The notes under the pieces: generated by a model | Seen by the model: the letters and a program-made list of their open reading frames with translations, nothing else | Databases searched by the model: none | What the model was told of the DNA's origin: nothing | Origin: Pelagibacteraceae bacterium AG-426-I15 | GTDB lineage: Bacteria; Pseudomonadota; Alphaproteobacteria; Pelagibacterales; Pelagibacteraceae | Direction of reading: 5' to 3' | Length of the DNA stretch: 64,000 nt | Assembly (NCBI GenBank): GCA_003213135.1 | Contig: QCNT01000003.1 | Coordinates: 1 to 64,000 of the forward strand | Shown: in pieces, positions 14,266 to 49,696 of the stretch | Numbering within the stretch: the first letter of the stretch is position 1 | How the letters are laid out: every line of letters starts with the position of its first letter | Position numbers and translations under genes: made by a program

Positions 14266-14526
14266 AAAGGGGCGTTCTGTTGCCAGGTGCCCCAAAACCC
14301 CGTTTACTTAATTAACAAGTTAATTAAGCAGCAAGTGCAAATTTATTATTTGCATTTATAATTAGCCCGTTACGTCGGAACCATCTCGAACGAAAGAATA
14401 GCCTTTAGACACTCGTCGATTCTGATTCACCCCCATAAGTTGTAAATGGTGGAGGTGGTGGGTACTGCCCCCACGTCCGCAATGTTTATTACGAAACTCG
14501 TTTATCGTCATAGTTGGAAAACCAAC
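14266..14526 (-). ncRNA. ssrA: Two-piece (circularly permuted) transfer-messenger RNA
   Basis: Read on the minus strand, the acceptor piece comes first. It has a T-arm (GTGGG, loop GGCAGTA, CCCAC), the acceptor strand CACCTCC, discriminator A and an encoded CCA ending at 14447. Twelve bases later the coding piece starts at 14434 with GGGGGTG, which pairs with CACCTCC and places G3-U70 in the stem, the alanine identity element. The tag frame follows as Ala-Asn-Asn-Lys-Phe-Ala-Leu-Ala-Ala-stop, then a 9-bp hairpin holding the stop codon, then a GGGGC/GCCCC pseudoknot-like end near 14269. The 5' end at about 14526 is inferred from a promoter. This layout is known from Alphaproteobacteria. It rescues stalled ribosomes. 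Confidence 0.9.
14267..14292 (+). repeat. Right att-like copy (26 bp) at the tmRNA 3' end
   Basis: This is the functional 3' end of the coding piece of ssrA and is identical to 13598-13623. Integration into the 3' end of tmRNA genes with regeneration of that end is a well-known strategy of tyrosine-recombinase elements. Confidence 0.8.
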
Positions 14527-14530
14527 AGAT

Positions 14531-14560
14531 ATAATATAAAATTAAAAATTAAAGATTCAA
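14531..14560 (-). promoter_or_regulatory. Candidate promoter of ssrA
   Basis: On the minus strand, TTGAAT (14560-14555) and TATTAT (14536-14531) are separated by 18 bp. This would start the transcript at about 14526, at the small hairpin GTTGG-TTTT-CCAAC (14526-14513). It lies in the short gap before the divergent thyX start. AT-richness makes chance matches likely. Confidence 0.4.
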
Positions 14561-14573
14561 TATATATTTCAAA

Positions 14574-47767: not shown

Positions 47768-49063
47768 TTAAGCCGCTAATGCTTGTTTAATGTCAGAAAT
47801 GATGTCATCAGGATGTTCGATACCAATAGAAAGCCTTACATAGCCTGGTGTAACACCAGCTTCAGCCAATTGTTTTTCATTAAGCTGACTATGAGTTGTA
47901 GAAGCCGGATGAATTGCTAAACTTCTAGCGTCACCAATATTTGCGACATGGTAAAGAAGTTTTAAGTTATCAATAAACTTAGCTCCCAACTCTTTGCTTC
48001 CTAAATCCATACCAACTAAAGATCCATAGCCACCCTTCATGTATCTTTTGGCTCTGTCTCTAATTTCACCTTGGTGGTTTGTAGGATAGATAACATTCTT
48101 AACTTTCTTCTGGCCCTCCAAGAATTTTACAACTTTCTCCGCGTTCGCACAGTGTTGTTTCATTCTTAAAGCAACAGTTTCTAAACCCTGAATTATTTGA
48201 AAGGCGTTGAATGGAGATAAAGGAGCACCAAGATCTCTTAATAGAACAACTCGAGCTCTCACAGCAAATGCAACATTTGCACCTGTCATTTTAGGAACGT
48301 CTCTTCCCCAAATCGCACCATTATAACTTGGATCAGGAGTGTTGAACAAAGGTTGTCTCTTTGCATTTCTAACCCAATCAAAGTTTCCACCATCAACAAT
48401 TATTCCTCCAATTGATGTACCATGCCCTCCAATATATTTTGTCAGAGAGTGCATAACTATAGCAGCACCATGTTCTAACGGTCTACATATTACTGGTGCA
48501 GCTGTGTTGTCGATGATCAAGGGTATTCCATGCTTCTTTCCAATGTCAGCAACTTCTTTAATTGGAAAAACTCTAAGATATGGATTAGGACAAGACTCTC
48601 CGTAATAAGCTCTTGTCTTCTCATCAGTTAATTTTTCAAAATTCTTCGGATCTTTTGGATCAGCAAATCTAACTTCAATACCTTGCATACTTAAAGTATT
48701 TTTGAATAAATTTACCGTTCCTCCATAAAGATCAGTCGAAGAAACTATATTGTCTCCCGCTTGACAAACATTCTGCACACAGAATGCAGATGCAGCTTGT
48801 CCCGATCCAACTGCAACCGCAGCCAGCCCACCTTCTAAAGCAGCAACTCTTTTTTCAAGTATATCGCAAGTGGGATTATTAATCCTTGTATAGATGTTAC
48901 CAAACTCTTTTAAACCAAATAAGTTCGCAGCTGTTTTAGCATCTTTAAATTGGTAAGAAGTTGTTTGATAAATAGGAACGGCCACAGCAGTAGTTGCTGG
49001 ATCGCTTCTATATTCACCACCATGAAGACCTATAGTCTCTGGATTTTTTATTTTATCAGTCAT
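47768..49063 (-). CDS. metY: O-acetylhomoserine sulfhydrylase (MetY)
   Basis: PLP enzyme making homocysteine (or methionine, with methanethiol) from O-acetylhomoserine. 431 aa. Cys/Met metabolism PLP family motifs: YTRINNPTCDILEKRVAALEGG, VSSTDLYGGTVNLF, and the PLP lysine in HSLTKYIGGHG (about residue 209). The C-terminal VRLSIGIEHPDDIISDIKQAL is typical. The leader carries two SAM-binding riboswitches, and the ATG at 49063 is preceded by AAAGGAGAG. Confidence 0.95.
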   Translation of the reverse strand: MTDKIKNPETIGLHGGEYRSDPATTAVAVPIYQTTSYQFKDAKTAANLFGLKEFGNIYTRINNPTCDILEKRVAALEGGLAAVAVGSGQAASAFCVQNVCQAGDNIVSSTDLYGGTVNLFKNTLSMQGIEVRFADPKDPKNFEKLTDEKTRAYYGESCPNPYLRVFPIKEVADIGKKHGIPLIIDNTAAPVICRPLEHGAAIVMHSLTKYIGGHGTSIGGIIVDGGNFDWVRNAKRQPLFNTPDPSYNGAIWGRDVPKMTGANVAFAVRARVVLLRDLGAPLSPFNAFQIIQGLETVALRMKQHCANAEKVVKFLEGQKKVKNVIYPTNHQGEIRDRAKRYMKGGYGSLVGMDLGSKELGAKFIDNLKLLYHVANIGDARSLAIHPASTTHSQLNEKQLAEAGVTPGYVRLSIGIEHPDDIISDIKQALAA

Positions 49064-49067
49064 TTTT

Positions 49068-49126
49068 CTCTCCTTTTTTAGTACTTCGACAAATAGTCAG
49101 GCGTACAATACAGTTCAAATGCCCAG
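49068..49126 (-). promoter_or_regulatory. SAM-V-like riboswitch overlapping the metY ribosome-binding site
   Basis: On the minus strand the leader contains CTGGGCATTTGAACTG, TTGTACGCC, a GAC-TATTT-GTC mini-hairpin, then GTACTAAAAAAGGAG. GGGC/GCC forms P1. The loop GTAC pairs with the downstream GTAC, closing a pseudoknot that buries AAAAGGAG, the Shine-Dalgarno site. This layout matches the SAM-V class described from marine bacteria. SAM binding should block translation. Confidence 0.82.
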
Positions 49127-49145
49127 TTTTAATTTGATTAATTTC

Positions 49146-49173
49146 AAAAAAAAACCACCGGCTAAAGCGGTGG
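49146..49173 (-). terminator. SAM-II-controlled intrinsic terminator
   Basis: CCACCG/CGGTGG hairpin followed by nine T on the minus strand. Its inner CGCTTTAGC is exactly complementary to GCTAAAGCG at the 3' side of the upstream aptamer, giving a mutually exclusive antiterminator. Confidence 0.88.
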
Positions 49174-49188
49174 TCTGAAAAGATCTAA

Positions 49189-49240
49189 CGCTTTAGCAGG
49201 TTTTATAAAGCGCTCGCAATTTGTATTAAATCAGCGCTAT
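49189..49240 (-). promoter_or_regulatory. SAM-II riboswitch aptamer
   Basis: The minus strand reads ATAGCGCTGATTTAATAC, AAATTGCGAGCGCTTTATAAA and CCTGCTAAAGCG. It has the P1 pair AGCGCT/AGCGCT around GATTTAA, and a 3' segment beginning GCTAAA that forms the H-type pseudoknot, as in the SAM-II class known from Alphaproteobacteria and Sargasso Sea sequences. With SAM bound, GCTAAAGCG is held in the aptamer and the downstream terminator can form. Confidence 0.88.
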
Positions 49241-49330
49241 GAAGAAATTATATTAGATTTGATACTGCTAAGTCAATAGTAATTTGGTCCATTTTGAACT
49301 ACAAAAAAATGTTATAGAATCAAGCTATTG

Positions 49331-49696
49331 ATGAATAATAAAAATTTAACCCCTGAACAAAAAAATATATTACGCAATGAAGGCACAGAACCACCAGGAT
49401 CGAGTCCTTTAAATCACGAAAAAAGAGTAGGTGATTACCATTGTGCTGGATGTGGAACAAAGTTATTTAGCTCGGATATGAAATACGAAAGTGGATCAGG
49501 CTGGCCTTCTTTCTTTTCATCTTTACCAGGTGTATTCGAGACCAAAACAGATATGAATATTGGATATGAACGAACAGAATATCATTGTAAGAAATGTGGG
49601 GGGCACCATGGACACATATTTGAAGATGGGCCCAAACCAACTGGCACAAGATTTTGTAATAATGGACTTTGCCTGGTTTTTAAGCCTAAAAAATAA
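49331..49696 (+). CDS. msrB: Peptide methionine (R)-S-oxide reductase MsrB
   Basis: About 121 aa repair enzyme for oxidised methionine. Zn site: CAGC (about residues 39-42) and CKKC (about 85-88). GSGWPSFF, the conserved HHGHIFEDGPKPTGTRFCNNG with the catalytic Cys in RFCNNG. The ATG at 49331 is preferred to the in-frame TTG at 49328. Divergent from riboswitch-controlled metY. The end overlaps a convergent membrane-protein gene by 11 bp. Confidence 0.95.
   Translation: MNNKNLTPEQKNILRNEGTEPPGSSPLNHEKRVGDYHCAGCGTKLFSSDMKYESGSGWPSFFSSLPGVFETKTDMNIGYERTEYHCKKCGGHHGHIFEDGPKPTGTRFCNNGLCLVFKPKK

Follow-up and report, generated by a model that had tools for sequence, protein, structure and literature searches.

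A predicted two-level SAM-II/SAM-V tandem riboswitch in the metY leader of a SAR11 genus

The leader of metY in Pelagibacteraceae bacterium AG-426-I15 contains a SAM-II pseudoknot, an intrinsic terminator and a SAM-V pseudoknot, and with a probability of about 0.8 these constitute a bi-mechanism SAM-II/SAM-V tandem that acts as an OFF switch for metY. The leader lies within the window, by which we mean the complete stretch of 64,000 nucleotides that was analyzed. A preliminary description made from the sequence had listed the elements of the leader, and all are present; its text was silent on the strand, which is the minus strand, upstream of metY.

On the proposed mechanism, at low SAM the 3' arm of SAM-II (GCUAAAGCG) would pair with CGCUUUAGC in the nascent terminator, so that the hairpin would be blocked and RNA polymerase would read on. 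When SAM is ample the SAM-II element would retain its arm in P2b and P2a, the terminator would fold, and transcription would end ahead of SAM-V. In those transcripts that escape, SAM-V would bind SAM, fold its pseudoknot and mask the metY Shine-Dalgarno sequence. Control of transcription and then of translation, as originally suggested, is supported by the sequence, by comparative evidence and by the literature on the class; we infer its dependence on SAM.

Results

Organization of the leader

Read in the 5' to 3' direction of the RNA, the leader comprises a sigma-70-type promoter, the SAM-II pseudoknot, the intrinsic terminator, SAM-V, the Shine-Dalgarno sequence and the ATG start codon at 49063 (Table 1). 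SAM-II thus lies upstream of SAM-V, with the terminator placed between them. The predicted promoter is retained in every same-genus relative compared, and its position suggests that transcription would begin just ahead of the SAM-II element. The msrB gene (49328-49696, TIGR00357) is divergent from the metY leader. Upstream of the promoter, in the metY/msrB intergenic region (49277-49325), there is an inverted repeat CATTTTT-N-AAAAATG that is conserved within the genus, and this may serve as an operator or belong to the msrB promoter.

Table 1. Positions of the elements of the metY leader within the window.
Feature	Position	Strand	Basis
metY, O-acetylhomoserine aminocarboxypropyltransferase	47768-49063	-	TIGR01326, 561.6 bits (cut-off 495.1)
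Predicted promoter: TTGACT (49276-49271), 18 nt, TATAAT (49252-49247)	49247-49276	-	Sequence
SAM-II aptamer	49240-49187	-	Pseudoknot; sub-threshold in Rfam; comparative support
SAM-II 3' arm GCUAAAGCG, for P2 (SAM-bound) or antiterminator (SAM-free)	49197-49189	-	Exact complement of 49169-49161
Intrinsic terminator ACCACCG-CUUUAGC-CGGUGGU and nine Us	49174-49146	-	Sequence; 95.1% of cells paired in 71 leaders
Antiterminator partner CGCUUUAGC inside terminator	49169-49161	-	95.1% of cells paired
SAM-V aptamer	49133-49067	-	RF01826, 62.8 bits (cut-off 41), model positions 1-66 (full length)
Shine-Dalgarno AAGGAG, 3' end of SAM-V pseudoknot	49075-49070	-	Sequence

Structure and homology of the SAM-II element

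The SAM-II element can be drawn as an H-type pseudoknot in which P1, P2b and P2a and the conserved GAUUU, AUUGC and GCUAAA segments are all present. P1 is formed by AGCGCU (49238-49233) paired with AGCGCU (49214-49209), and P2b by UUGC (49219-49216) paired with GCUA (49197-49194) with a U-U in between. P2a comprises the A49224-U49188 and C49223-G49189 pairs.

The element scores below the Rfam gathering cut-offs, with 21.6 bits for SAM_alpha (RF00521, cut-off 36) and 19.6 bits for SAM-II (RF01726, cut-off 44). Assignment to the SAM-II class had been made in the preliminary description, with a check against RF00521 under the name SAM_II; the Rfam name of that accession is SAM_alpha. The absence of a covariance-model match to either class was to count against the proposal, and this could be read as having been found for one of the two. 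Yet Rfam, even at E ≤ 1, fails to list the SAM-II of a published tandem, that of bhmT in P. ubique HTCC1062 (L076), for which PMC5069961 cites a KD of 1.2 μM. Silence from Rfam is therefore uninformative in this lineage, and the miss is a limit of the models and not a defining biochemical feature. Since the published bhmT element fails too, judging membership by Rfam alone was dropped and leaders were gathered using SAM-V as the only anchor. The class assignment does not pass Rfam; it is upheld by covariation and by homology.

The resulting alignment, A1, comprises 71 distinct leaders from family-wide genomes. Pairing in P1 stands at 98.6%, and four of its six pairs carry compensatory changes. 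P2b is invariant in all 71 leaders, as are the ligand-site bases. The P2a pair in columns 28-66 is UA in 38, AU in 20, GC in 5 and GU in 4. Taking P1 and P2a together, 70 cells are altered on both sides where shuffles give 21.8, and the signal collapses in slid controls. A covariance model (R1) built from the SAM-II elements of these SAM-V-anchored leaders recovers the published metX SAM-II of HTCC1062 (PMC2704228) at 218246-218296 of genome G026 (41.4 bits, E = 2e-8), identified as HTCC1062 because its SAM-V positions agree with the coordinates in PMC2704228. The element is thus linked by homology to an accepted SAM-II, and from knowledge of the family it would be expected to bind SAM. Model R1 also finds a second SAM-II in the genome from which the window derives (G000:C4:4174-4225, L262; 52.9 bits), lacking a SAM-V and lying upstream of an ORF that we read as metX-like.

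The terminator and the antiterminator

The terminator hairpin (ACCACCG-CTTTAGC-CGGTGGT in the DNA) occupies 49174-49154, and the tail of nine Ts noted at the outset is found at 49154-49146. As the U tract follows the hairpin in the metY direction only, this is not the msrB terminator. The complementarity originally reported between the SAM-II arm and the terminator is also borne out; GCTAAAGCG (49197-49189) and CGCTTTAGC (49169-49161) are exact reverse complements, the latter spanning the 7-nt loop together with the uppermost two bases on the 5' side of the hairpin stem.

The match extends to 9/9 pairs, allowing G-U, in 61 of 78 leaders. A G-C to A-U compensation occurs in L056, L070 and L071, and an outer CCUGCU/AGCAGG-type helix is retained in these three and in L072 and L225. 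Compensatory change in the antiterminator is weaker than in P1 and P2a; it is seen at one pair only (GC to AU, three sequences), a number that was attained in 180 of 500 shuffles. Little independent covariation is available to this helix because GCUAAA doubles as a ligand-binding element. Antiterminator covariation as sole proof was accordingly dropped, and we rely on the combined evidence.

For the SAM-free RNA from SAM-II to the terminator, the predicted minimum energy structure keeps P1 and forms the antiterminator (-25.5 kcal/mol), compared with -21.5 kcal/mol for P1 plus the terminator, in calculations that omit the pseudoknot and the ligand. When the two parts are folded separately the preference for the antiterminator shrinks to -1.5 kcal/mol for the leader in the window, and in some relatives it is less than 1 kcal/mol. 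The sequence and these predicted energies indicate that SAM-II and the terminator are mutually exclusive by virtue of the common arm at 49197-49189. Since SAM-bound P2a and P2b compete with the antiterminator for the same bases, SAM should free the terminator.

The SAM-V element

The downstream pseudoknot, originally described as SAM-V-like, is matched by the Rfam model above its gathering cut-off. The Shine-Dalgarno sequence lies directly 3' of the pseudoknot, with the methionine gene metY downstream. The crystal structure of a metY SAM-V riboswitch explains how P2a, on binding of SAM, comes to cover part of the Shine-Dalgarno sequence (PMC6061858). That RNA is of the same Rfam family and is likewise an H-type pseudoknot beside the metY Shine-Dalgarno sequence, whereas the SAM-V of the window has SAM-II and a terminator ahead of it. 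By analogy with the published model, the suggestion that a second pseudoknot buries the ribosome site would be explained by occlusion through P2a. SAM binding, and with it the translational block, would be expected from what is known of the family, as would SAM-dependent termination upstream.

Relationship to published tandems

Both riboswitch classes were recognized from the start as known, and the logic of the tandem has also been published. A review counts 149 SAM-II/SAM-V tandems with the same predicted logic, in which SAM-II precedes a terminator and SAM-V controls the ribosome site, and following Poiata et al. 2009 it calls them bi-mechanism riboswitches (PMC9481103). The complete switching logic had been singled out as notable; the logic stands, and the leader is a good but ordinary member of a published class.

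HTCC1062 has a tandem before bhmT, and only a SAM-V is given for its metY (PMC2704228, PMC5069961). The bhmT tandem shares SAM-II, a U9 intrinsic terminator, SAM-V, the Shine-Dalgarno sequence and the predicted logic, but it controls bhmT where that of the window controls metY. The two also share the GCUAAAGCG:CGCUUUAG pairing, the predicted partners in HTCC1062 being CCUGCUAAAGCG and CGCUUUAGACAGG. Release of a terminator on SAM binding is similarly predicted for the Sinorhizobium meliloti metZ SAM-II, for which no downstream SAM-V was described (PMC9373788). The Rfam models score the SAR11 SAM-II elements below cut-off, a further difference from the alphaproteobacterial metZ SAM-II. What the present leaders provide is a two-level SAM switch placed on metY rather than bhmT across one SAR11 genus, together with comparative support for the antiterminator step.

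The SAM-II/terminator/SAM-V arrangement is found at 17 of 17 same-genus SAM-V loci examined, and SAM-II with the terminator is also kept, with covariation, across many genera. A contig scan using a pattern with built-in complementarity returned at least the matches listed; these were used for distribution only, and were kept out of the covariation analysis because the pattern selects for pairing. Viral contigs searched with the same tandem pattern gave no matches, so that for this precise pattern phage carriage is not indicated. A contig labeled as a Bdellovibrionales MAG (L111) bears the SAR11 tandem pattern, and is probably mis-binned SAR11 DNA.

Alternative explanations

It is conceivable, if unlikely, that only SAM-V senses SAM, the linker masking SAM-II, and that the terminator acts as a constitutive attenuator or answers to another signal. 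In the one tandem with in vitro probing in the literature searched, full-length P. ubique bhmT RNA, SHAPE showed a SAM-II unresponsive to SAM unless oligonucleotides blocked the linker, the cause being left unexplained (PMC11508383). Once the leader RNA is complete, its lowest predicted energy also belongs to the antiterminator fold. However, an invariant ligand site and P2b with covarying P1 and P2a in 71 leaders would be unexpected for a dead aptamer. Moreover, because HTCC1062 bhmT shares the arm-terminator pairing, we infer that the refolded full-length RNA sits in the antiterminated form, the product of a decision already taken. Its silence would then reflect capture of the arm by the antiterminator and fit the switch. 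The antiterminator step would offer a simple and testable reason for this 2024 report of a SAM-II inactivated by its linker.

We think it very improbable that the SAM-II arm mainly invades its own P1 (UAAAGCG with CGCUUUA, 49213-49207), leaving the terminator match as a by-product of the repeat. Such a helix is the predicted fold of the SAM-free RNA before the terminator has been made, with 90.1% of cells paired and eight compensatory cells, but in almost every leader its 5-7 of 9 pairs are outnumbered by those of the terminator match. L056, L070 and L225 have a weakened form of this helix and retain either the terminator match or its outer helix. Invasion of P1 and pairing with the terminator may act in sequence. 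A chance similarity, in which an ordinary terminator happens to precede a lone SAM-V, might be argued from the lack of any Rfam match above cut-off for SAM-II. It has a negligible likelihood; on the sequences compared it is already contradicted by retention at every same-genus SAM-V locus and in many genera with covariation, and when the linker was shuffled by mononucleotides 20,000 times, an exact 9-mer complement to the arm arose just twice.

Other arrangements in SAR11

We put at even odds the proposal that SAR11 bacteria have at least three SAM-II/SAM-V layouts. Layout A, that of the window, uses the P2 arm as antiterminator. In layout B, found in two other genera in six metY-type leaders that lack the arm-terminator match (L055, L057, L060, L062, L063 and L236), it is the 3' strand of P1, GCGGGCAUUAAAC, that pairs with the linker and the 5' arm of the terminator, with a duplex energy of -12.5 to -16.2 kcal/mol. 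From this modeling, layout B looks like a different and less familiar antiterminator belonging to a SAR11 clade.

Layout C occurs in metY and mmuM leaders of the genus Pelagibacter, including HTCC1062, where a SAM-II-like pseudoknot precedes SAM-V by about 20 nt and no terminator lies between them. The loci are L008-L035 (g3 metY) and L233-L235 (mmuM), together with HTCC1062 metY (L256, 160-206, plus strand) and mmuM (L257, 163-209, minus strand). Rfam gave no SAM-II match at the layout C loci tested, whereas model R1 scores 14.7-26 bits exactly at the pseudoknot site in all such loci searched, and gives no match in two loci without the motif, L231 and L232. P1 and the UCC/GGA P2a helix show a few compensatory changes, HTCC1062 metY and mmuM included. 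The conserved GGA that pairs with the loop UCC in P2a is Shine-Dalgarno-like, with no start codon nearby. On this evidence layout C is possibly an unrecognized, terminator-less SAM-II/SAM-V tandem; a description of it was not found in the SAM-II/SAM-V literature searched, a scope that excludes Poiata et al. 2009. If this is so, the model metY SAM-V would be one half of a double sensor that works without a terminator. Layouts B and C suggest that control of methionine synthesis by SAM is more layered than annotated in these very abundant ocean bacteria.

At some loci there is a short ORF of about 16-25 codons running from the SAM-V ribosome site before the next gene, for example MNRIKLRSFFSRKTEKK (L058, L059, L197, L198, L200, L202-L204, L206, L209, L212 and L076, the HTCC1062 bhmT leader). 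This looks like a leader peptide, and is possibly translationally coupled. Elsewhere in the window, an alphaproteobacterial permuted tmRNA is found at 14266-14564 on the minus strand (RF01849, 227.3 bits).
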